A DNA stretch of 40,729 bases from a virus. A program made the position numbers and the translations under genes. The notes below the pieces were generated by a model. The model was not told where the DNA came from. It made no database searches and saw only the letters and a list, made by a program, of their open reading frames with translations. This document shows, one piece after another, positions 2,646-38,422 of this stretch (positions within the stretch are counted from its first letter, which is position 1; each line of letters opens with the position of its first letter). The stretch is taken from IMG/VR virus record IMGVR_UViG_3300020202_000147, positions 1-40,729 of that record; one strand, written 5' to 3'.

Positions 2646-2707
2646 CAGTGGGTAACTTTTTAGTGACCAGCAACGGCTTTACAGCAAATCCCGTTGCGTT
2701 TCTTCAC
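2646..2707. repeat. Dispersed imperfect repeat, copy C
   Basis: On the minus strand this segment carries GTGAAGAAACGCAA and, further on, CCGTTGCTGGTCAC followed by an A-rich run and CCACTG. Nearly the same order and spacing of blocks occurs at 39976-40036, and a shorter version at 3467-3496. The copy spans the 3-prime end of the methyltransferase gene and the non-coding stretch after it. Confidence 0.5.
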
Positions 2708-3407
2708 ACTTAACTGGCGTTGTAAACAAACTCTTCGTCGTTGCTCGAAGCCGTTTCTTTGCGATCCCGCAGTATTTTTCGTTGATTTCGATGCCGATGC
2801 CGTTACGGTTTAGCTCTTTACATGCAACTAGCGTGGTGCCCGAACCGAGGAATGGGTCAAGGACTGTGTCGCCACCATTACTTAACCGAAGGATAAGGCG
2901 TTTTATAATTCCAACGTTTTTGGGACAGGGATGATCTTTTAAGTTTTTAATCTCGTCACTGTTTCCGCCCTCGTAATGAATTGCATCTCCCTTTATGATG
3001 CCGTTAATTGAACCAAACCCCTTAACGTCTGAGCCATAACACAGAATTGGCTGCCACTGATTAACTCCATAATCTCCATAGGTATTTGTTCCTCGCCAAG
3101 CCCAGGCGATAATCCAATCGGCTTTAGGGTATTCGAATACATGCCTTAAGCCGCAGAAGGTGGCAGTTCTGTTCGCTAATTTGCTGGCCTTTGCTATCGC
3201 CGGAACGACAACGGCTCTTAGGTTTTCAAGGCTGTCCTCATACGAAAGGTATTTATAGCCAATTCCATAAGGCGGATCTGTAAGCGTTAAATCAACTTTA
3301 GGAAGCATCGGCATAACCGCCAAACAATCCCCGTGATAGATTTTTATATCCGGGTCTTTTTCTTCGTAATACAGATAGTCTTTAAGCTCTTTCAAATTCC
3401 ATCCCAC
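2679..3407 (-). CDS. DNA N6-adenine/N4-cytosine methyltransferase (class beta)
   Basis: The 242-residue enzyme would transfer a methyl group from S-adenosylmethionine to an exocyclic amino group of DNA. Motif IV DPPY is at residues 44-47, and the SAM-binding DPFLGSGTT motif is at about 184-192. The catalytic motif therefore precedes the cofactor motif, the class beta order of the N6_N4_Mtase family. GIGIEINEKYC follows as the SAM-contacting acidic loop. No restriction enzyme gene lies beside it, so it is a solitary phage methylase, probably used to evade host restriction or for regulation. Recognition sequence unknown. Its 5-prime end overlaps the small zinc-finger gene. Confidence 0.9.
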   Translation of the reverse strand: MGWNLKELKDYLYYEEKDPDIKIYHGDCLAVMPMLPKVDLTLTDPPYGIGYKYLSYEDSLENLRAVVVPAIAKASKLANRTATFCGLRHVFEYPKADWIIAWAWRGTNTYGDYGVNQWQPILCYGSDVKGFGSINGIIKGDAIHYEGGNSDEIKNLKDHPCPKNVGIIKRLILRLSNGGDTVLDPFLGSGTTLVACKELNRNGIGIEINEKYCGIAKKRLRATTKSLFTTPVKCEETQRDLL

Positions 3408-3772: not shown

Positions 3773-3939
3773 CTTAGCCTCTCCGCAATCAGCTCGAGAG
3801 CCTTTACCTTCCGCAACTCAAGATCATCGGCGCATTCGCAACTGTGTTCGCATATTTCAATTTGCCCAAATTCGTCCACCGCCCAAACCTCACCAGAGAA
3901 TAGGAGCGATAAAAACAATAAAGCCAGTTTTTGTTTCAT
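3769..3939 (-). CDS. Small secreted Cys-rich protein
   Basis: ATG 3939 overlaps the TGA of the upstream microprotein. The 56-residue product has a clear signal peptide, MKQKLALLFLSLLFSGEVWA, with cleavage after VWA. The mature part of about 36 residues contains CEHSCEC, a likely disulfide or metal-binding knot, followed by an amphipathic helix. It should act in the periplasm or envelope. Superinfection exclusion or lysis control is possible, but no family is recognised. Confidence 0.65.
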   Translation of the reverse strand: MKQKLALLFLSLLFSGEVWAVDEFGQIEICEHSCECADDLELRKVKALELIAERLR

Positions 3940-4165: not shown

Positions 4166-4314
4166 TAGTACACGAACCTCAGTTCGACTTTTTTCTTCTT
4201 CGCGCACTTGGTACAAAGGCCGCTGGATGGTTTTGTGATCCAGTTCCGAATTTTTTTGCCGCATTTCCCACATTTGTAATCAAACGCCGATTTTTCGTTT
4301 TTAGCAGTTGGCAT
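4165..4314 (-). CDS. Zinc-ribbon microprotein (49 residues)
   Basis: It starts at ATG 4314 inside the end of the HNH gene and ends TAATG into the next zinc protein. The knuckles are YKCGKCGKKI (about residue 14) and GLCTKCAKKKK (about residue 34). The very basic tail is compatible with nucleic-acid binding. Not assigned to a family. Confidence 0.6.
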   Translation of the reverse strand: MPTAKNEKSAFDYKCGKCGKKIRNWITKPSSGLCTKCAKKKKVELRFVY

Positions 4315-4711
4315 CTTGTCCCCTCGCGATCTCGTTTAGTTTTTGAGATAAATCAGCGTACATTTTTTCGTGATAGCCCCTATCTTGCCAGGTTCTAAAA
4401 CAGGCCTTTTGTTTTGCGATCCTCCGAAGCTCCAAAAACCCGTCTTTTTCCCTGCCTTCAACCAGCTCGAAAACTTGCAATGCCACGTCTTTCTGCCCAA
4501 AGCTTTTGGCCGTGTGGCACGCCGAGCAAAGAATTGTCAGGTTCCTAATGTCGTAAAACAGTTGCTTGCAGGTCCTCGAAAAACAGTGATCAATTTGCAG
4601 GTTGTTAAACGATCCGCATAACTCACAGGTATCCCCACGTAACAACCGGACGATTTTTCTGAGTAGCTGCCAGTTCTTGTTGATCAACGTCTTGATGCTC
4701 GGGCGCTTCAT
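4301..4711 (-). CDS. HNH endonuclease-like protein
   Basis: The 136-residue protein has the HNH zinc-finger pattern: CELCG (about residue 30), the catalytic-type LQIDHCFSR (about residue 43), then NLTILCSACH (about residue 64). The C-terminal half is helical and charged. The spacing resembles the NinG/Rap group of lambdoid recombination nucleases. Position directly downstream of the helicase gene (ATGA overlap) supports a role in DNA replication or recombination rather than homing. Likely a metal-dependent nicking or structure-specific nuclease. Confidence 0.75.
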   Translation of the reverse strand: MKRPSIKTLINKNWQLLRKIVRLLRGDTCELCGSFNNLQIDHCFSRTCKQLFYDIRNLTILCSACHTAKSFGQKDVALQVFELVEGREKDGFLELRRIAKQKACFRTWQDRGYHEKMYADLSQKLNEIARGQDANC

Positions 4712-5586
4712 CGTCCAATCGCCAATTTCGCTTCGTAGCGGTTGTTGTAAAACCGGTATGTCTCGCCAGAGAAAAACAGCTCAAATGATCCAACCGGCCC
4801 GAACCTGTTCTTAGCTATCTGGATCTTGAAGTTGTTTCCCAGTTCCGTTGGTTCCTTTAGCTGGTGCATTAGGAGAACGTGATCGCTCATTTCCTCGATT
4901 GCACCGGTACCCTTCAGGTTGGCGATCGTTGGCGCGTCCTCTCCCTGCCTGTTAATTTGTGACAGAACTACAACCGCCATCTTGTGCCGCATTGCCACTT
5001 CTTTCAAAAACCGGAGGTAGTTAGTAAGACTTTCCCACTGCGTTTGTTTGCCCTCGGAGCGGATGTGCTGGATGTGGTCCAGGATTAAAACATCAGGTCT
5101 GAACTCTAGATGATCAATCAGTGTATAAAGCTCATTCTCGGTGTAGCAGTAATCGTCAATGATCCGGATAGGCAGATCTGCGATCTCGGCTACAAATCTG
5201 TTCATCTTGTGGTCTGTTTCCGGGTTCGTCCTGCCCATAATTAAATCAAAACCGTTCACGCCGAACTCGCTGCAAAACATCCGTTCAATGATCGTTTCTT
5301 TAGTCATCTCGAGACTTAAAAACGCGACCTTTTTTCTCATTTTTGCAATGTGAACCGCAGCCTGACAAACAAGCGTCGTTTTACCGATACCAGGCCGCGC
5401 GGCGATAGTCGTAAGCTGCGCTTTGTGCAGTCCGAAAATTCCCTTGTCTAGAACTTCCAGGCCTGTTTCGAAATCTGGCTTTCCGGTTCTGGATTTGACG
5501 TTTTCGACAAATCTTGTAAGCGTTTCTGCCAGTGGTTCAAACTTTGGATAGAATTTCTCAGGTTTTCGTCCGCCAATTTCAGGCAT
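4708..5586 (-). CDS. DnaB-type replicative helicase, RecA core only
   Basis: The 292-residue protein contains the DnaB C-terminal RecA-like ATPase: Walker A ARPGIGKT at residues 63-70, SLEM after strand 2, Walker B PDVLILDH at about 164-171, and VVVLSQINR at about 206-213. It should hydrolyse ATP to unwind DNA at the phage fork. The usual N-terminal helical domain of DnaB (about 100-150 residues) is missing; only about 40 residues precede the ATPase core. The preceding 105-residue gene overlaps it by 139 nt and may supply that role. The upstream gene is a replication-initiator-like protein. Confidence 0.9.
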   Translation of the reverse strand: MPEIGGRKPEKFYPKFEPLAETLTRFVENVKSRTGKPDFETGLEVLDKGIFGLHKAQLTTIAARPGIGKTTLVCQAAVHIAKMRKKVAFLSLEMTKETIIERMFCSEFGVNGFDLIMGRTNPETDHKMNRFVAEIADLPIRIIDDYCYTENELYTLIDHLEFRPDVLILDHIQHIRSEGKQTQWESLTNYLRFLKEVAMRHKMAVVVLSQINRQGEDAPTIANLKGTGAIEEMSDHVLLMHQLKEPTELGNNFKIQIAKNRFGPVGSFELFFSGETYRFYNNRYEAKLAIGR

Positions 5587-10968: not shown

Positions 10969-10996
10969 TGGCGGGGGGGAGGATCGAACTCCCGAC
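10969..10996 (-). other. Probable attachment-site core: 3-prime end of a host tRNA gene
   Basis: The minus strand carries a perfect tRNA T-arm (GGGAG-TTCGATC-CTCCC) followed by CCCCGCC, a seven-nucleotide acceptor 3-prime strand, and the discriminator A. No matching 5-prime half (GGCGGGG, D-arm, anticodon arm) lies upstream, so it is not a tRNA gene. A tRNA 3-prime fragment about 700 bp from a tyrosine integrase gene is the usual form of attP for phages that integrate into tRNA genes and restore them. A GGCGGGG acceptor with A73 would fit an elongator tRNA-Met, but the isotype is a guess. Confidence 0.75.
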
Positions 10997-11235
10997 AGAC
11001 ATACTACTACGCCAAATGCACTAAGGATAAAGGGCTAACAGCCCTAGAGGAATAAATAGGGTGCAGACCGCACATGATTAGGCTTTCGACGGCCCGACAG
11101 AAGACAGAGGAACGATCCGCACCCGTGGAGTGGAAAAGGGGTTTGGTTTGTCTTCTGCCATTTGTGTTTCGTCGAAATTTAATCATGTTGTGCATCGAAT
11201 TATATTCCTCTTGTTTCAAATAACAACAACAATTT
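10997..11235. other. Gene-free region beside the attachment core
   Basis: About 240 bp with no convincing gene. It holds a small hairpin (GGGCT-AAC-AGCCC near 11027-11046) and imperfect repeats around the tRNA-like core, as expected for integrase arm-type or core binding sites. A minus-strand frame from 11219 and a 27-codon frame inside it lack ribosome sites and are not called. Confidence 0.5.
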
Positions 11236-11481
11236 TCAACTTTCTAACAATTTCTCTAACACCATCTTGCTATATGCCGCATAAATCAAATGCTCGTCTG
11301 CTGCACACTCCAAACAAAACCGCATGTACTTCGAATATCCTTCTTCATTCTCAAACCGCGCTGTTTTGTAGACGTCACCTATTTCTATAAACTTGCCGCA
11401 GTTTGCGCAATAACCTGTTGACCGCTTACAGCGGTGCTCGGTTATTTGCGGTTTGATTTCTTTTTCTTTCCTTCGCGCCAA
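11236..11481 (-). CDS. Zinc-ribbon protein
   Basis: I choose TTG 11481, with AGGAG 8 nt upstream. The longer GTG-started frame to 11505 has no ribosome site and lies deeper inside the preceding gene. The protein (81 residues) has a basic N-terminus, GYCANCGKFIEIGD, FENEEGYSKYMRFCLECA, and a helical C-terminus. CxxC...CxxC spaced about 30 residues apart is a treble-clef or ribbon zinc site. It overlaps the ribbon-helix-helix gene by 40 nt and is probably co-transcribed from the promoter at 11635-11663. Confidence 0.6.
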   Translation of the reverse strand: MARRKEKEIKPQITEHRCKRSTGYCANCGKFIEIGDVYKTARFENEEGYSKYMRFCLECAADEHLIYAAYSKMVLEKLLES

Positions 11482-11612
11482 GATGAAATCTCCTGCAATT
11501 CCCACCGCATTAAATGAAGGACGTAATCCTTGATGGTAGTATTGCGTTTTACAGCCTCCAACTTTATAGCCTTATGCGTGTCGTCATCTATATCTATCAC
11601 TAATCGCTTCAT
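11442..11612 (-). CDS. Ribbon-helix-helix regulator (Arc/CopG type)
   Basis: The 56-residue protein starts MKRLVIDIDDDTHKAIKLEA followed by VKRNTTIKDYVLHLM. A short N-terminal strand, helix, turn and second helix is the standard ribbon-helix-helix dimer, whose strand inserts into the DNA major groove. ATG 11612 has a GGAGG site. Its promoter carries a perfect inverted repeat over the -10 element, so autorepression is likely. Its location between integrase and attP suggests control of excision or of the downstream zinc-ribbon gene. Confidence 0.75.
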   Translation of the reverse strand: MKRLVIDIDDDTHKAIKLEAVKRNTTIKDYVLHLMRWELQEISSWREGKKKKSNRK

Positions 11613-11634
11613 ACCACCTCCGACTGATACTTTA

Positions 11635-11663
11635 ATTGTACATTAGTACATCGGGACAGTCAA
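11635..11663 (-). promoter_or_regulatory. Sigma70-like promoter of the RHH gene
   Basis: Minus strand -35 TTGACT (11663-11658), 17-bp spacer, -10 TACAAT (11640-11635). This is close to consensus and lies 23 nt before the ribbon-helix-helix ATG. Confidence 0.8.
11637..11650. promoter_or_regulatory. Operator: TGTAC-N4-GTACA inverted repeat
   Basis: A perfect palindrome TGTAC-ATTA-GTACA overlaps the -10 box and spacer of the RHH promoter. Short inverted repeats with A/T spacers are typical RHH-dimer sites, so the gene product is the likely ligand. Confidence 0.6.
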
Positions 11664-11692
11664 CACTAATCTTTAATTATTTTTAAAGCCTC

Positions 11693-11719
11693 AAAAACCC
11701 CTTATTTTCCAAGGGTTTT
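11693..11719 (-). terminator. Terminator after integrase gene
   Basis: Minus strand AAAACCCTT, loop GGAAAAT, then AAGGGGTTTTT with one mismatch and a T run. It overlaps the integrase stop codon and separates integrase mRNA from the promoter of the RHH gene. Confidence 0.65.
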
Positions 11720-12623
11720 AAGCGTATTCCTGTTTTAGCTTGTCGATTTCTTTCTTGGTGTGCTCGAATGAAAGATGGGTATATTCTGCGGTCTGGTTGA
11801 TGTGGGCGTGCCCTGCCAGTTCCTTTACAACCGCTAAGGGAGCGCCAGCCTCGACCATTTCGGTTACGTAGCCGTGACGTTTTGCGTGCGGAAACGCCCT
11901 GACCCCCACGTCAAGGCCGCGCTCCCTGATCATTTTGTGGACTCTGTTTCCACTAAGCCTAACCCCGTCCTCCCTTGGGAAAAGGGGCATATGTGGTTCT
12001 GCCAACCCCTGCTCTTTTAGGAAGGATAGGTAGATCCTCATATATAAAGCGTTACTTCGAGAGATCGGAATCCACCTAAAACCGTCCCTTTTACCATGCT
12101 TTACGTGTATCCCCCGTCGTCCTGACCTGAAATCGACATCACCTACATTTAATGAAGTCAGTTCGGTCTTCCTTATACCCGAAGCTTCGAAAAGTATCAT
12201 AATTGCTACATCTCGTACGGTCATAAAGGGAGATGCCCAAAGTCTCTGCCAAAGCTCCTTCCTTATAACGGTCGGTTCTTTCTTGGGGCCCTTCCTATAT
12301 TTGAACCCCTCTGCCATCGGATTGTGAGGGATGATCTGCGCCCGGTGTTTCGCCCACCAGTAGAAGTCCTTCATATAGGTAAAGGCTTTGTATGTGGTAT
12401 TCCTGTCCCAAGGTTTCCGAACCCCCTTTTCGGCCGCGCGAAGAATCAGACCATGAATGGTGTTGTACTCCGGTATCCAGAGGATCTCCCCACCATGAAG
12501 CGCGTAGAGCGACTTTAACAGATAGACCTTATTCTCAATCGTCTTCCGCTTCAGGTTCAGATCGTTGGCGAGATAGTGCGCGTACTTTTCTAAAGTGTTT
12601 AGTTGTTCAGGCATGAGCCGCAT
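11718..12623 (-). CDS. int: Tyrosine recombinase (phage integrase)
   Basis: The protein has an N-terminal SAM-like core-binding domain (EKYAHYLANDLNLKRKT) and a catalytic domain with all expected residues: Arg in EASGIRKTEL (about 151), Lys in HVKHGKR, His-x-x-Arg in PHAKRHGYVT (about 246-249), His in ELAGHAH (about 272), and the Tyr nucleophile in TAEYTH (about 281). The frame is open to ATG 12683, but the predicted transcription start is only a few nt before that codon, so I prefer ATG 12623 (MRLMPEQLN). It should join attP near 10.98 kb to the 3-prime end of a host tRNA gene. Confidence 0.92.
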   Translation of the reverse strand: MRLMPEQLNTLEKYAHYLANDLNLKRKTIENKVYLLKSLYALHGGEILWIPEYNTIHGLILRAAEKGVRKPWDRNTTYKAFTYMKDFYWWAKHRAQIIPHNPMAEGFKYRKGPKKEPTVIRKELWQRLWASPFMTVRDVAIMILFEASGIRKTELTSLNVGDVDFRSGRRGIHVKHGKRDGFRWIPISRSNALYMRIYLSFLKEQGLAEPHMPLFPREDGVRLSGNRVHKMIRERGLDVGVRAFPHAKRHGYVTEMVEAGAPLAVVKELAGHAHINQTAEYTHLSFEHTKKEIDKLKQEYA

Positions 12624-12695
12624 ATTAATCCCAGATTTTAATTTTGTGGGGACAAAAATCCGGGTTTTAAAAGCAAGTGTCATGCCTGAATGCGA

Positions 12696-12724
12696 ACTAT
12701 AGAGGGTGTTCGGAACTTTGACAA
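12696..12724 (-). promoter_or_regulatory. Sigma70-like promoter for integrase
   Basis: Minus strand -35 TTGTCA (12724-12719), 17-bp spacer, -10 TATAGT (12701-12696). The predicted start point near 12689 lies upstream of the integrase coding sequence. Confidence 0.7.
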
Positions 12725-12746
12725 ATCTTTAGAAGTGCACAATAAT
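12718..12746 (+). promoter_or_regulatory. Divergent sigma70-like promoter pointing into the HTH gene
   Basis: Plus strand TTGACA (12718-12723), 17-bp spacer, AATAAT (12741-12746). The -35 box overlaps that of the integrase promoter. Its transcript would be antisense to the HTH repressor-like gene, since no plus-strand gene follows. Confidence 0.55.
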
Positions 12747-12752
12747 TTGTGC
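12737..12752. promoter_or_regulatory. Operator-like palindrome GCACAA-TAAT-TTGTGC
   Basis: A perfect 6-bp inverted repeat with a four-base spacer covers the -10 of the divergent plus-strand promoter and lies 3 bp beyond the HTH stop codon. The core AATAATT flanked by CACRA halves recurs at 12964-12980 and 13031-13047, so all three may bind the HTH protein. Confidence 0.55.
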
Positions 12753-12754
12753 AA

Positions 12755-12964
12755 TTAAAACTTAAGAAGCTTCCAAAGCTCGGTATTGAGGGCTTTTGCT
12801 ATTCTGACAAGAACGTCAAAGGACGGGTTTTTAGGGTTTCTACCCTCTAAATTCTGAAGGTATTTCACGCTTATTTGAGCTTTCTCGGCAAGCTCGGTTT
12901 GTGTCAATCCGCTTTTCTGCCTTAACGTGTAAATCTTAAAACCGAGTTTTCTGCGATTATCCAC
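12755..12964 (-). CDS. HTH (Cro/CI-type) regulator
   Basis: The 69-residue protein is one HTH_3 domain: LGFKIYTLRQKSGLTQTELA (helices 1-2) and AQISVKYLQNLEGRNPKNPS (recognition helix and following), with FDVLVRIAKALNTELWKLLKF closing it. It lacks the CI dimerisation/peptidase domain, so it is Cro-sized. The start is GTG 12964, directly at an operator-like inverted repeat and without a ribosome site. A GATAAT box 5 nt before GTG would give a leaderless mRNA, as for lambda cI. It is the probable lysogeny regulator. Confidence 0.8.
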   Translation of the reverse strand: MDNRRKLGFKIYTLRQKSGLTQTELAEKAQISVKYLQNLEGRNPKNPSFDVLVRIAKALNTELWKLLKF

Positions 12965-13047
12965 ACGAATAATTATCGTGAAAGTTGCTGAAGATAAGAA
13001 CCATCTATCGAGGGCATTTTATTTTACGCGTGTAAATTATTCTTGTG
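12964..13047. promoter_or_regulatory. Upstream control region of the HTH gene with two operator-like sites
   Basis: Three elements are visible: CACGA-N7-TCGTG at 12964-12980 covering the GTG start; TTTAC-GCGT-GTAAA at about 13022-13036; and a related TGTAAATTATTCTTGTG at 13031-13047. The first and last share an AATAATT-like core and CACRA half with the site at 12737-12752. Possible promoters are weak, for example TTAACA with a 19-bp gap to TAAAAT on the minus strand. Confidence 0.45.
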
Positions 13048-13780
13048 TTAACGGAATGAAATCGGCCTGCTCGCCTTCAATCACGATGCCAACCCCGATC
13101 GTCGGTTTGTTCTTTAAAGGCTTCCCGTATCTAAAAGCATAAGCCTCAACATCGATCAAACATCCGACGTTAAGTCCAAAGATCGTGTTATATCCGTTCG
13201 AGTGGTACATCGCCCCACCGAACGAATGCAGATGACCGATGACCGTGTTCATTCTTTTAATACATGCGGCGTTAATTGCCCCTGACTGGCCGCTGAACCC
13301 CTCCCCGTGAAAGTAAAGGACATTATCAATAATCAGCTCATCCTGCCACGTCCAGCCCTTGGGAGCCTCTAAAAACTCGGATGTCTTCCTTATAAAATAA
13401 GAAGGAATGCCGACCTCCTTAGCCATCTTGAAGGGTCTTGAGGTGTGGTTCGAATTACAGACCTGGACTCTAGGGAAAAGGCAGTACAGCTCCTTCAGGA
13501 ACTTAATCGCCGCGCGAATTTCATCCATAGCCCCCATTGCGTCAGGCTCCGGCCGGTGCCTACTTATAATATGGAAGTCAACCTCATCCCCGATGCAGAC
13601 AACTTTAGTGCATTTGAACTTCTTATAGGTATCACTGAGGAAATCAAGGGCGTGTTTATGCTGGAACGGGGCGTGCAGATCCGAAATGACTAATACGGTG
13701 TCCTTGGCAGGTTTTCTGTCAGTCTGCGGTGTGTTCTTTTTTAATTTGTTTGTTGGCGACCAAGGACGCCAGATGTTCAA
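13037..13780 (-). CDS. Calcineurin-like metallophosphatase
   Basis: The 247-residue protein has the metallophosphoesterase motifs in order: ISDLHAP (residues 32-38), CIGDEVDFH (62-70), CNSNHTSR (108-115, in place of the usual GNHD/E), YFHGE and VIGHLHSF. These bind two metal ions and hydrolyse phosphodiesters or phosphomonoesters. It is the last gene of the late module, next to the papain-like gene. Phage members of the family are thought to act on DNA or nucleotides, but the substrate here is unknown. The Gly-to-Ser change in the GNH motif is unusual but leaves the metal ligands. Confidence 0.85.
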   Translation of the reverse strand: MNIWRPWSPTNKLKKNTPQTDRKPAKDTVLVISDLHAPFQHKHALDFLSDTYKKFKCTKVVCIGDEVDFHIISRHRPEPDAMGAMDEIRAAIKFLKELYCLFPRVQVCNSNHTSRPFKMAKEVGIPSYFIRKTSEFLEAPKGWTWQDELIIDNVLYFHGEGFSGQSGAINAACIKRMNTVIGHLHSFGGAMYHSNGYNTIFGLNVGCLIDVEAYAFRYGKPLKNKPTIGVGIVIEGEQADFIPLTQE

Positions 13781-13788
13781 AAGAACTC

Positions 13789-14313
13789 CTAGACGGTTCT
13801 TAGAACTTCCATGAAATCTTTATGATCTGCGATTTCTTCTAGTCTCTCTTGAGGGTTGGAGGACTCGCAGTCTTTGAAAAATTTATCGCTGGTGGCTTCG
13901 TAAAGGACGGCCCAAGTCTCTTCGTCGCACTTGCTGAATTTTTTATTACCGATCTTTTCGGCAAGTTTTCCCTTAATCTTGGGGTGTAGGAAAAACGTCA
14001 AAGCCTGGGTTGCGACATCTAAATAAGAGTACGGAGTACCCAGTCTTTTTTCTGTGATGATATCAATCGCTGCCTTGTGGAAAGCACTTAGCCACCTCAC
14101 TCGAAATACCCTGATCTTCGACTCGTCATATTTGGTAATGGGCGAGAATTTGCTTTTCATCCACGCGCCATCAGTCTCGTAAATCTGGTTATTTGCGACG
14201 ATCGCAACATGCGAGACTTTCCCGAACGTAAACAGACCGATCAACTTAGACACAAACCCCGTTCCGAACACGAAAATAATATCCCCTGTTTCGTACAGCG
14301 CTGATGGCTTCAT
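13789..14313 (-). CDS. YiiX/NlpC-P60-like permuted papain-fold protein
   Basis: The 174-residue protein has LYETGDIIFVFGT at the N-terminus, then VSHVAIVANNQIYETDGAW with the His in SHVAIV, and KKFSKCDEETWAVLY with the Cys. In the permuted family the His strand precedes the Cys helix, as here. Such enzymes cleave or transfer amide or thioester bonds, including peptidoglycan stems. In phages they can act as virion-associated wall hydrolases or lipid-modifying enzymes. No signal peptide is visible. The ATG overlaps the upstream stop. Confidence 0.75.
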   Translation of the reverse strand: MKPSALYETGDIIFVFGTGFVSKLIGLFTFGKVSHVAIVANNQIYETDGAWMKSKFSPITKYDESKIRVFRVRWLSAFHKAAIDIITEKRLGTPYSYLDVATQALTFFLHPKIKGKLAEKIGNKKFSKCDEETWAVLYEATSDKFFKDCESSNPQERLEEIADHKDFMEVLRTV

Positions 14314-14477
14314 GATTTCGCCGCAGTTCTGGCAGCGATGATCATGCAGTTTTGGATGAATTCGACTTTTTGCTCATCATCCATCGTTTCCCATGCTTTA
14401 TGCAGAAGCATGATCGCTTCAGCTCCTGGGATTAACTCAACCGCTTTTACTGCTCTCTTGCCAAGTTTAGTTTTCAT
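14310..14477 (-). CDS. 55-residue hypothetical protein
   Basis: ATG 14477 lies within the end of the previous gene, and the TGA overlaps the next ATG. The sequence is helical: KAVELIPGAEAIMLLHKAWE then DDEQKVEFIQNCMIIAARTA. No family recognised; coding support is from coupling and composition. Confidence 0.55.
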   Translation of the reverse strand: MKTKLGKRAVKAVELIPGAEAIMLLHKAWETMDDEQKVEFIQNCMIIAARTAAKS

Positions 14478-14685
14478 CGGGGTTTATGACCTCAGGGGTT
14501 AGTAGTGCGCTGCAAGAGTGGTCAAAGATTTGAATATCTTCTATTAGCCAGCGGCGCTGTGCTTTTTTGAAGACAAGCGAAGGATCAGCGTCGAGAGCTT
14601 CTAAATAGATCCTTAAAGTATTAAGCATTTTTAGGGCTTCTTCGATGACTTCTCTAAGTTCGCTGACGCGCTCTTTATTGTCCAT
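14467..14685 (-). CDS. Hypothetical helical protein (72 residues)
   Basis: Starts MDNKERVSELREVIEEALKM, a coiled-coil-like helix, and ends with an acidic tail. The first base of its ATG overlaps the stop of the membrane coiled-coil gene. Function unknown; it belongs to the small gene cluster between fibre and papain-like genes. Confidence 0.55.
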   Translation of the reverse strand: MDNKERVSELREVIEEALKMLNTLRIYLEALDADPSLVFKKAQRRWLIEDIQIFDHSCSALLTPEVINPDEN

Positions 14686-15017
14686 TAAGGTATTAAAACC
14701 GTGAGAGCTTTTATTAATTCCGGAAAGACAGCAGCGTTGAGTTCCTTGCTGATTACAAATAGAAAAAATGATCCGCTTACAATCATATTGATTTTGAAGA
14801 ATTTAATGGCCTGCTTGCTGGCTTTTTCAAATAAAAGAATGTCCTGGTTCGAGTGTGTTGTTAGGCGGTCTGATAAACTGGACATTTTTTCTACTTCGCG
14901 GCGGTATACTTCTGACTCTTCGATGTGTTTGTTGAATTTCGCCCGGTCTTCATCAATAAACGCTTTTATGTACTTAATATCCGTTCTCAGCTCTGCCAGC
15001 TCAGACTCGATACTCAT
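14685..15017 (-). CDS. Coiled-coil membrane protein
   Basis: The 110-residue protein has an N-terminal coiled coil (ESELAELRTDIKYIKAFIDE...) and a C-terminal membrane segment at about residues 76-92 (INMIVSGSFFLFVIS), with a second hydrophobic stretch at the end (LIKALTVLIP). This layout resembles small holin or XhlA-like proteins of phages. It follows the fibre cluster, a usual place for lysis genes. Assignment as a holin is inference. Confidence 0.55.
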   Translation of the reverse strand: MSIESELAELRTDIKYIKAFIDEDRAKFNKHIEESEVYRREVEKMSSLSDRLTTHSNQDILLFEKASKQAIKFFKINMIVSGSFFLFVISKELNAAVFPELIKALTVLIP

Positions 15018-35113: not shown

Positions 35114-37134
35114 GCCTGAGCCCCGGCCATGAGCCCGGCATTTGCAGTCATGTCTGATTTCGCCTGACTGGGTTTCTGCTGGCCCTGCACCTGTTGCATA
35201 AGCGCCTCTAAATCGCGCATCATCATCGCTAACGGCCCGTCTGGTCCGCCGATGCCAGGCACCATCATTTCCATTTTTGCGATCTTTTCATGATCAGCGA
35301 ATATTTCCATGATGCGTTTAAGTGCACCTTGATAATCCTCACCAAGCTCTTCAACGCTCATCGGAGCGCCGCTCAATGTCAGGTCTAAGACCTGCTGATC
35401 CACGTTTCTAACAGGCACATCAATCAAGAACCCTTCAGGGTCACGAACTTCGAGGTTGTTTACATACTCCATAACAACGCGCTCGCCGTTTAATTTTTTC
35501 TTGCCGCCAAGTAACGGCTCCATAGCCTTAATATCCATGATCGCTTCTTTGATCGTGCGGCGTTTAAGTTCCCGGTTCGGCATCACGAACGTTTCAATGT
35601 TGATATCGACGTTGAATTTCGCCTGAAGGTCTTGAGGGAATACTTCTCTGGCCTCTTCCTCGCCGGTTGTCTTAGATTTCACCGTGATATTCCTGGGGTC
35701 TTTCATGTTCTTCTGCGTCAGTTTCGCCCAGTCGTAAAAGAACCCGACCAGAAAGTCTTTGAACTTATCGACTTTATAAGCGCCCTGGGAGTTATCCTGC
35801 TGCGCGATCTGTTCTGACTCAGTTGCTGTCTTTTTCTTCTCTTGAACGGCCACTTGCGCAAAAGCCGGTTTACGGGACAGTTCGTCAAATACGCGCTTGC
35901 ACAGGTCAAACATCACATTGTGATCCGCGCTGAGTTCCTGATCCTGGATCTGGTGCACCAGTGCGCGAATATCCAAGCCGGGAGGCAGGTTGTTTAGCGA
36001 GATTAATTCAAGATCCTCGTCTTTAAGCCATTTCGAGATGTTTTCCTTACCCATCCCGTCTTTGCCGCCCTTGACCAAAGTCCGAGTCCGGGAGCGTTTA
36101 AGGTGCTTAAGCATCTTGCTCATCAAATAATCAATCGTGCACAGGATCGCCTCAAGCTTCCATGCCTCGGACGGAGGAATGAACCCGTCGCACGGGTCGT
36201 TTAACGCAAGGAGATGGATGGGATAGCCTTTATCATCCGGACCGTTTCCACGATCCCAGTCTTCGTAGGCCAGGACTGTTTTAACTTCCTGATCTTCCGA
36301 CAAAACAAGGCGTTTTAAAGGGCCGCCGTCATCACCCTTGATCCAGATATAAAAGATTTTCTCGAACAGAAGATCGTCTTTTGCGAGATCCTCTTTTTTC
36401 ATGTCTTCTTTGTCCACGTCCAGCAGATCAGCGTACTGTTTGCCCTTTAACTGGCTGACCGCGTTCTGGTCAAGCGTCGGATCGCTCTTTAAACACTCAA
36501 GAGACACAATATCCACAAACCCAAGATACGGGCTTTCCTGGTAGTTATAGAGCGTCTGGAACGGTGGTCTGATCAGGTTCTCAGGCAGTATCTTGCAAGG
36601 TCTAACTTTGTTCGATACCGGGATCTGTTTAAACGCTGTGGGATTGTTCGGATCAATTAACTCATTCGAGTCCTGCGTCCTGTAGTCGTAATCGATATAA
36701 AACACCGCCAAAGAAGCCAGCTGTTCATCTACTAAACCGGCACGCATCATCGCTTTTAACGAGCGGTTGTCCTTGATGTCGTCATTGACGATCTGCTGCA
36801 GGTTCTCGGTGTTCCGTACTTCTGTAGGGTTCTCGGTGTCTCTTGCAGATAAATCAATTTCCGGGTTCTTGTAATACACAGACCCGTTAAAGTCCTCAAC
36901 TGCGGAATACAGAAGATTGAAGGTTTCATGCGTGTATTTGTTCTTCGTCTTTTGGTACCCGAACGCCTCGGAGTTGTACCGCTTCTTTGCGACCTTGTAT
37001 TTCTCCATGATCTGCATACGGTGGTATTTATTGGCTGTCTTCGCGCGGTTTCGCCAGAGCTGGACTTGTTTCTCGTCCAGCATGTCTTTTTTAAGCGGAA
37101 GTACCTTTTCCTGGTCGTCGGTAAGTTCAGGCAT
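35110..37134 (-). CDS. Portal protein
   Basis: I choose ATG 37134 (MPELTDDQEK), which overlaps the terminase stop by 8 nt and has GAGGAAA upstream, over the frame to 37182. The 674-residue protein has a long helical N-terminal part (RNRAKTANKYHRMQIMEKY), a central alpha/beta portion, YLMSKMLKHLKRSRTRTLVK, and PAFAQVAVQEKKKTATESEQ. The last is close to the P22-type portal signature with its Thr-Ala-Thr-Glu block. The C-terminal helical tail ends with a MMMRDLEALMQQVQGQQ coiled coil. It should form the dodecameric DNA channel next to the terminase. Confidence 0.85.
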   Translation of the reverse strand: MPELTDDQEKVLPLKKDMLDEKQVQLWRNRAKTANKYHRMQIMEKYKVAKKRYNSEAFGYQKTKNKYTHETFNLLYSAVEDFNGSVYYKNPEIDLSARDTENPTEVRNTENLQQIVNDDIKDNRSLKAMMRAGLVDEQLASLAVFYIDYDYRTQDSNELIDPNNPTAFKQIPVSNKVRPCKILPENLIRPPFQTLYNYQESPYLGFVDIVSLECLKSDPTLDQNAVSQLKGKQYADLLDVDKEDMKKEDLAKDDLLFEKIFYIWIKGDDGGPLKRLVLSEDQEVKTVLAYEDWDRGNGPDDKGYPIHLLALNDPCDGFIPPSEAWKLEAILCTIDYLMSKMLKHLKRSRTRTLVKGGKDGMGKENISKWLKDEDLELISLNNLPPGLDIRALVHQIQDQELSADHNVMFDLCKRVFDELSRKPAFAQVAVQEKKKTATESEQIAQQDNSQGAYKVDKFKDFLVGFFYDWAKLTQKNMKDPRNITVKSKTTGEEEAREVFPQDLQAKFNVDINIETFVMPNRELKRRTIKEAIMDIKAMEPLLGGKKKLNGERVVMEYVNNLEVRDPEGFLIDVPVRNVDQQVLDLTLSGAPMSVEELGEDYQGALKRIMEIFADHEKIAKMEMMVPGIGGPDGPLAMMMRDLEALMQQVQGQQKPSQAKSDMTANAGLMAGAQA

Positions 37135-38422
37135 CGATTTCCTCATAGCGTCTTTCCGCTTGTCTCTTTTCCATCCATTCAAAATGGTCTAATGAGCCCT
37201 TCACGATCGGCTGATCTTGTTTACTAAGCGACGGACGGCTCATCACGATATATCTTCCGGCATCGCAAAGATGATCCTTGTCCTTGTACGGGACGGGCTT
37301 GGAGACCCCGAGCGTGGTTTCTCTTTCCTCAGCCCAGTGATAGATCATCAGTTCAGCGCGGTAGTTGGTAAGCGTGTTGAAGATCTTTATTTTGTTGTTC
37401 TTCAGGTACTCGGCAAAGCGGTTGATCCCGGCCATCACGTCATTCTCGGCTGGCCAGGGCTGTATCCCTGTATCCGAATATTCGTCGTAGAGCGTGTAGA
37501 GATTTCCAAGTGCGTTTCTCTGGTTCTTGATCTTTGCGGCCGGGTCAATCAGCCAGAGTTTCGGGTTCCAGTGCTTGATCGCGTCCATCACCTCAGATGC
37601 GCGTTTGTTCTGTTCGTAATACTCTTTGATAAAATAAATGCATCCGGCATCATCAATCGCGGCCAGCAGCGCTGCGGTCGTTCCTGACACCGCCACGTCG
37701 ATACACGCAACCGTTTCCCACCAATCCGGGATCTCCTTCGGTTCGATCACATGCGTATTCTCATCAAACTCCGGCCAGATAAGCCCCGTAAAATCCTCAA
37801 AACTGGCTTCATGCTCCTGCCTGAAATTGCGCTCGCTCATCTGCGCTTTTGCTTCTTTGATCTCAGAGCGTGGGATATACGGGTTATCCTCGGTCTTGGC
37901 TTGATAGCTGTTGTAACCGTTCTCTTTGCGCTGCCCTTTCATCCAAAGCTGCCAGAAATGGTTCTTCCCCTTCGGTGTACCAATGAATAACGCAGGAGCC
38001 TGACGGTCTGTGAGCATGGGCCTGATAATCTCCTGCCAGACGTTCGGTTTCATCGATGCGTATTCGTCCAGCACGACATAATCAAGCCCAACCCCCCTTA
38101 AACTGTCCTCGTTATCCGCGCCTTTTAAACAGATCGATGAACCGTTGATTAGCTGCACTTCAAGCTCAACCTCGTTCTTCTTTGCGATCAAATGCTCAGG
38201 CGTCATTTTTAGGAGCATCTCCCAGGAGATCATCTTCGCCTGTTTGTACGTCGGCGCCACATACCAGATAAGCGCGTGTTTTGTCTCAAGCGCCTTTGTC
38301 AGCATCTTCACGATCGCCAGCACCGTTTTCCCGAACCTGCGCCCGGCGGCTACCACGATAAACCTGGCCGGGTCATTGAAGATCTGGTACTGCAAATCGT
38401 GGAGCTTGTAAGTGATTTTCAT
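37127..38422 (-). CDS. terL: Terminase large subunit
   Basis: The 431-residue protein carries a Walker A AAGRRFGKT at 25-33, a Walker B YVVLDE at 115-120, coupling motif GTPKGKNHF (about 148-156), and the nuclease acidic sites CIDVAVSG (about 240), LIDPAAK (about 294) and HLCDAGRYI (about 393). It packages DNA into the prohead through the portal and cuts it. The start overlaps the putative small subunit. It is the clearest gene of the head module. Confidence 0.95.
   Translation of the reverse strand: MKITYKLHDLQYQIFNDPARFIVVAAGRRFGKTVLAIVKMLTKALETKHALIWYVAPTYKQAKMISWEMLLKMTPEHLIAKKNEVELEVQLINGSSICLKGADNEDSLRGVGLDYVVLDEYASMKPNVWQEIIRPMLTDRQAPALFIGTPKGKNHFWQLWMKGQRKENGYNSYQAKTEDNPYIPRSEIKEAKAQMSERNFRQEHEASFEDFTGLIWPEFDENTHVIEPKEIPDWWETVACIDVAVSGTTAALLAAIDDAGCIYFIKEYYEQNKRASEVMDAIKHWNPKLWLIDPAAKIKNQRNALGNLYTLYDEYSDTGIQPWPAENDVMAGINRFAEYLKNNKIKIFNTLTNYRAELMIYHWAEERETTLGVSKPVPYKDKDHLCDAGRYIVMSRPSLSKQDQPIVKGSLDHFEWMEKRQAERRYEEIDA

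Follow-up and report, generated by a model that had tools for sequence, protein, structure and literature searches.

The window analysed here is an uncultivated virus record of 40,729 bp, in which all recognisable genes lie on the minus strand (Table 1). The gene order around the locus of interest is metallophosphoesterase, a small HTH gene, tyrosine integrase, a ParD-like ribbon-helix-helix (RHH) gene, attP, and the early or replication genes. The HTH gene has the metallophosphoesterase and the integrase as its neighbours, and the placement of an HTH regulator beside an integrase in a temperate phage, which bears on the reading given in an earlier note on this DNA, is supported by Pfam matches to HTH_3 and Phage_integrase and by an attP that equals a tRNA 3' end. 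In the early region, two ORFs were recognised by eye from their translations, one DNA methyltransferase-like (2679-3407) and one HNH-like (4301-4711); no restriction enzyme partner for the HTH gene was seen in the window.

Table 1. Genes and predicted regulatory features of the window
Feature	Position	Strand	Details
Terminase large subunit	37127-38422	minus	
Portal-like protein and structural genes		minus	between terminase and metallophosphoesterase in the listed gene order
Metallophosphoesterase	13037-13780	minus	
Site 3	13029..13047		no dyad; lies over the 3' end of the metallophosphoesterase gene
Proposed operator O1, GCCCTC-GATA-GATGGT	13000..13015	minus	centre -43 from GTG
Candidate weak -35, TTCTTA (3/6)	12995..13000	minus	17 nt from GATAAT; overlaps O1 by one base
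Candidate -10, GATAAT	12972..12977	minus	7 nt before in-frame GTG (12964); predicted leaderless-type promoter
Site 2, CACGAATAATTATCGTG, CACGA-N7-TCGTG	12964..12980	plus	5-bp-arm dyad, 7-nt spacing; overlaps -10 and start codon
HTH gene, 69 aa, single-domain XRE/HTH_3	12755..12964	minus	GTG start; Pfam HTH_3 1.1e-12
Site 1, TGCACAA-TAAT-TTGTGCA	12736..12753	both	7-bp arms; one base after HTH stop codon
Putative antisense promoter, TTGACA(12718-12723)-17-AATAAT(12741-12746)	12718..12746	plus	no plus-strand gene ahead
Putative integrase promoter, TTGTCA(12724-12719)-17-TATAGT(12701-12696)	12696..12724	minus	12 nt before int ATG
Tyrosine integrase, 321 aa	11718..12683	minus	Pfam Phage_integrase 7.5e-23; phrog_1 2.8e-29
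ParD-like RHH gene	11442..11612	minus	Pfam ParD 4.6e-6; equivalent in sibling phage
attP core, 28 nt	10969..10996	minus	matches a tRNA-Met(CAT) 3' end from two Omnitrophota genomes
DnaB-type helicase	4708-5586	minus	early/replication genes, past attP

The 28-nt attP sequence exactly matches a tRNA-Met(CAT) 3' end present in 2 of 270 Omnitrophota genomes, and the 24-nt attP core was found in none of the 214 Pseudomonadota genomes. The integrase and the attP at a host tRNA show by computation that the phage is temperate; its hosts are probably uncultured Omnitrophota bacteria. Searches with the integrase and the terminase in Omnitrophota returned distant matches only, no close integrase relatives were found in viral contigs or GTDB genomes, the attP pattern gave no matches in viral contigs, and megablast of half of the window against phages gave zero matches. 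The nearest relative found, the sibling phage IMGVR_UViG_3300021061_000035, has a terminase 70% identical to that of the window, and in it, too, the metallophosphoesterase is followed in turn by the integrase, the RHH gene and an attP resembling a tRNA end. An RHH gene occupies the place of the HTH gene there, and RHH genes flank the integrase on both sides. No HTH gene of the family described below was detected in this sibling (G001) by the family HMM, nor between its metallophosphoesterase and integrase.

Several further similarities were observed on the far side of the integrase. Differing tRNA 3'-end-like stretches lie just downstream of the integrase-RHH pair in the sibling phages (window 10969-10996; L008 ~4213-4243), and in both a similar terminator (agccca...tgggctttt) follows. 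The RHH promoter predicted in the window (minus strand, 11637-11663) reads TTGACT-17-TACAAT with a TGTAC-TAAT-GTACA dyad, and the combination of TTGAC(T/A)-17-TACAAT with a GTAC-N3/4-GTAC dyad is common to the RHH promoters of the window and of L008 (~3829-3863). This arrangement suggests that, in two related phages, the RHH gene downstream of the integrase encodes a second small regulator whose autoregulation is conserved.

The HTH gene product is the sole XRE protein found in the window, where the family HMM matches nothing else. The closest relatives, L011 and L014, were retrieved with the HTH protein as query against GTDB species genomes and share with it about 48-55% identity, a YLQ.LEG recognition helix and a ~70-aa HTH_3 domain. 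The sigma-contact motif is TQE in most relatives but TQT in the window, where the acidic helix-2 residue is replaced by T. The protein matched the PADLOC Control_protein model at 2.1e-7, and C.BclI and C.AhdI were among the matches of a profile search; its NCBIfam matches were all far below the curated cut-offs. Both best relatives come from genomes of the same phylum set, the Omnitrophota. L011 is a prophage-like contig with the order terminase small subunit - HTH - integrase; in L014, an Omnitrophota genome, the HTH gene is followed by what PADLOC identifies as a type II restriction enzyme (a BglII-like assignment was not borne out by Pfam).

Family homologues were detected in 43 of the 285 Omnitrophota genomes sampled (E<=1e-10) and in none of the 214 Pseudomonadota genomes. 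Many of these relatives lie in defence or mobile islands rather than next to integrases. In the Omnitrophota loci L082-L117, the family HTH genes are mostly solitary and oriented against the flanking genes, often with RadC, ORF6N, TIR, Vsr or other island genes nearby; in L121 (2980-3489), an Omnitrophota-like viral record or restriction island, two tandem family HTH genes stand beside a type II restriction enzyme and a methyltransferase. The more distant viral HTH matches (L120-L143) are mostly ordinary XRE genes that lack the promoter. A limited literature search found no description of the family. The HTH gene of the window, carried by a phage, encodes a regulator of a known kind, and its family is widespread in an uncultured phylum.

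For phylogenetic footprinting, the upstream regions of the relatives were laid out by start codon. A dyad of the form ACC-N10/12-GGT, centred at -47 to -39 (~43 bp upstream), is present in 25 of 33 relatives, compared with a mean of 0.16 and a maximum of 3 in shuffled sequences; dyads with arms of at least 5 occur in this register in 21 of 32 relatives (2.3 expected). In 18/33 relatives (1.2 expected; n=32 in that test), but in only 4/69 neighbouring genes, a -10 box ends 6-8 nt ahead of the start codon, whereas Shine-Dalgarno-like motifs precede 6/33 family members and 31/69 neighbouring genes. With a -10 box at this distance, transcription would begin on the start codon or right beside it, as it does for leaderless mRNAs; these predictions support a leaderless-type promoter for the HTH gene. 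The earlier note had also guessed at leaderless translation. The guess is upheld in that the -10-to-start spacing is conserved in dozens of relatives; the distance it gave is not, as the GTG lying 5 nt after GATAAT is out of frame and the in-frame GTG follows after 7 nt. A second dyad over the -10 box was rejected as a family feature because of its weak enrichment (17/32 relatives versus 8.7 expected; maximum 16). In viral contigs, the strict pattern CCATCNNNNGATGGTTNTTA gave 62 matches, none of which precedes a relative of the HTH gene; the motif alone is therefore not diagnostic.

In the window, the corresponding site is the proposed operator O1. Its right arm, GATGGT, is identical to those of L011 and L014, and its left arm is degenerate (4 of 6 pairs), with GCC instead of the family ACC. 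The presence of CC-N10-GG in register at -43 has a P of 0.006; by themselves, sites resembling O1 are about as frequent in the window as chance predicts, and a scan of the rest of the phage revealed no further operator copy in excess of chance. Aligned in register, the promoter region of the window is identical to that of L011 at 31/59 positions and to that of L014 at 28/59, values reached by 0 and 1 of 500 shuffles, respectively, and the -35 register is shared with both relatives, which have TTGTTA. O1 lies within the interval treated in the earlier note (12684-13047) yet is absent from it. Judged from these comparisons, the interval is a real regulatory region, and its predicted central control site is none of the three that had been proposed.

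The homology of the gene, of its predicted promoter and of the candidate operator was established computationally, and we consider it probable that this phage gene belongs to a family of small autoregulators common in Omnitrophota and controls itself via O1 from a leaderless-type promoter. The gene would be read from TTCTTA-17-GATAAT-7-GTG, and its product, presumably as a dimer, would bind its own promoter at O1, abutting the weak -35 box, so that occupancy of O1 would set the level of the protein's own mRNA. Because lambda CI at OR2 on PRM and the controller proteins show this geometry, the protein would most likely activate its promoter at a low dose and repress it at a higher one; repression may be exerted through site 2 over the -10 box. 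The integrase just downstream has a putative promoter of its own and would be the gene most likely co-regulated. Dimer binding, the sign of regulation and the effect on integrase and lysogeny are what we infer from this layout; for lysogeny, a role is suggested by the position next to the integrase, in both the window and L011, and by the lack of any other XRE protein in the phage. Counting against the autoregulator model are the degenerate left half of O1, the TQT motif, the lack of such an HTH gene in sibling G001, the island settings of the relatives, and the one clear operator versus the two tandem boxes of controllers.

Two well-studied systems offer the closest parallels. At lambda PRM/OR2, a leaderless-type repressor mRNA is combined with a weak -35 box and an operator centred at about -42/-43. 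With O1 near -43, a poor -35, a good -10 and a predicted leaderless start, the HTH promoter would have this layout and would resemble controller promoters as well. The window also resembles the lambda CI system in having the regulator near the integrase of a temperate phage. Unlike CI, however, the 69-aa HTH protein has no C-terminal dimerisation/cleavage domain, and the window has neither a divergent Cro-type gene nor three-operator right and left control regions. The R-M controller (C) proteins, such as C.PvuII, C.AhdI and C.Csp231I, are, like the HTH protein, single-domain HTH proteins (~70-80 aa), and their mRNAs are commonly leaderless and autoregulated (PMC4824078; PMC2997769). The HTH gene would share with them a leaderless-type promoter and a dyad control site in its own promoter near the -35 box, and two of its relatives adjoin type II restriction enzymes. 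In contrast to C proteins, it has no adjacent restriction enzyme or methyltransferase, one clear operator of different sequence instead of two tandem C-boxes (OL, OR), and TQT in place of the SQE contact motif. Other single-domain XRE proteins (the SinR N-domain, DdrO and RstR) are similar over the HTH domain but have no operon or extra domain in common with it. By analogy, the HTH protein may work like an R-M controller or like CI at PRM.

The affinity to controllers raises the alternative that the HTH gene is mobile, controller-protein-like cargo that regulates only itself and plays no part in lysogeny, the real repressor of the phage being encoded elsewhere, for example by the RHH gene at 11442-11612. 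The diverse neighbours of the relatives, including type II restriction enzymes (L014, L121) and defence genes, are consistent with such cargo, as are the RHH genes retained around the integrase of the sibling phage that lacks the HTH gene and the absence of another operator copy above chance in the window. The position directly upstream of the integrase, the like pairing in L011 and the status as the only XRE protein in the phage argue against it, and we regard this explanation as rather unlikely.

In the earlier note, the region had been described as a lysogeny switch in which a CI-like repressor acts on three sites with an AATAATT core and a divergent plus-strand promoter produces antisense RNA controlling the HTH gene. 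All of its elements are present in the DNA: the GCACAA-TAAT-TTGTGC palindrome on the plus -10 box (site 1) is real and one pair longer than stated, the plus promoter alone in the window reaches an 11/12 sigma70 match and scores best there, and CACRA-N4-TYGTG and CACRA-N7-TYGTG occur once each in the window, both in this region, at site 1 and site 2, respectively. However, the half-sites are 4, 7 and ~9 nt apart, so the three sites cannot be one operator type; site 3 is no dyad, and the relatives share a different dyad, at -43. The plus -35 box mirrors that of the integrase promoter, and neither a plus-strand gene nor a partner repressor was found. A switch in the CI/Cro sense is not borne out, given the lack of a divergent partner gene and of a second operator copy above chance, and the model as a whole appears highly improbable. 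Within the self-regulation that we favour, site 2 is a possible second (repressing) site, and it is not conserved.

The remaining elements of that model lie in the 74-bp gap between the HTH gene and the integrase. The two promoters said to share a -35 region are present as quoted. Among dinucleotide shuffles of the gap, 0.07% gave a plus-strand match of 11/12 or more, 1.4% a minus-strand match of 10/12 or more, and 0.1% matches of 10/12 or more on both strands. Since TTTGACAAA can be read as a -35 box on either strand, the two promoters are interdependent, and the predicted pair is one -35 coincidence, not two. The minus-strand promoter is the natural, putative promoter of the integrase. No plausible plus-strand gene lies ahead of the plus promoter in the ORF list, and this promoter faces only the HTH gene, in antisense orientation. 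No close relative carrying the HTH-integrase gap was found.

Whether the GCACAA palindrome and the plus promoter arose by coincidence in AT-rich DNA, the latter as a by-product of the integrase -35 box and the former as no more than a weak RNA hairpin behind the HTH stop codon, seems to us evenly balanced. The double reading of the -35 box favours coincidence, and the 11000-15000 region holds a chance number of promoter-like sites (6 found, 6.1 expected). Dyads like site 1 with arms of at least 7 number 17 in the window, and an arm of at least 6 in the gap has a P of about 0.14. As RNA, site 1 would form a 7-bp hairpin (-7.7 kcal/mol, z -2.85) with no U-run on either side, for which reason a terminator was rejected. 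The rarity of both promoters together in the gap shuffles stands against coincidence. Site 1 may be an mRNA 3' structure, a site of the integrase promoter, or chance. A more elaborate proposal, in which a controller-type, self-activating leaderless regulator, from a family otherwise scattered over host islands, would serve an Omnitrophota phage as a lysogeny timer with the integrase and antisense promoters interlocked via the shared -35 element, is in our view improbable.

Gene control in uncultured Omnitrophota and their phages has been almost unstudied. The conserved control site described here is one that inspection by eye had overlooked, and the phage member adjoining an integrase links the HTH family to mobile DNA. 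The predicted leaderless-type, autoregulated HTH genes, with their predictable operator, would provide a directly testable set of promoters.
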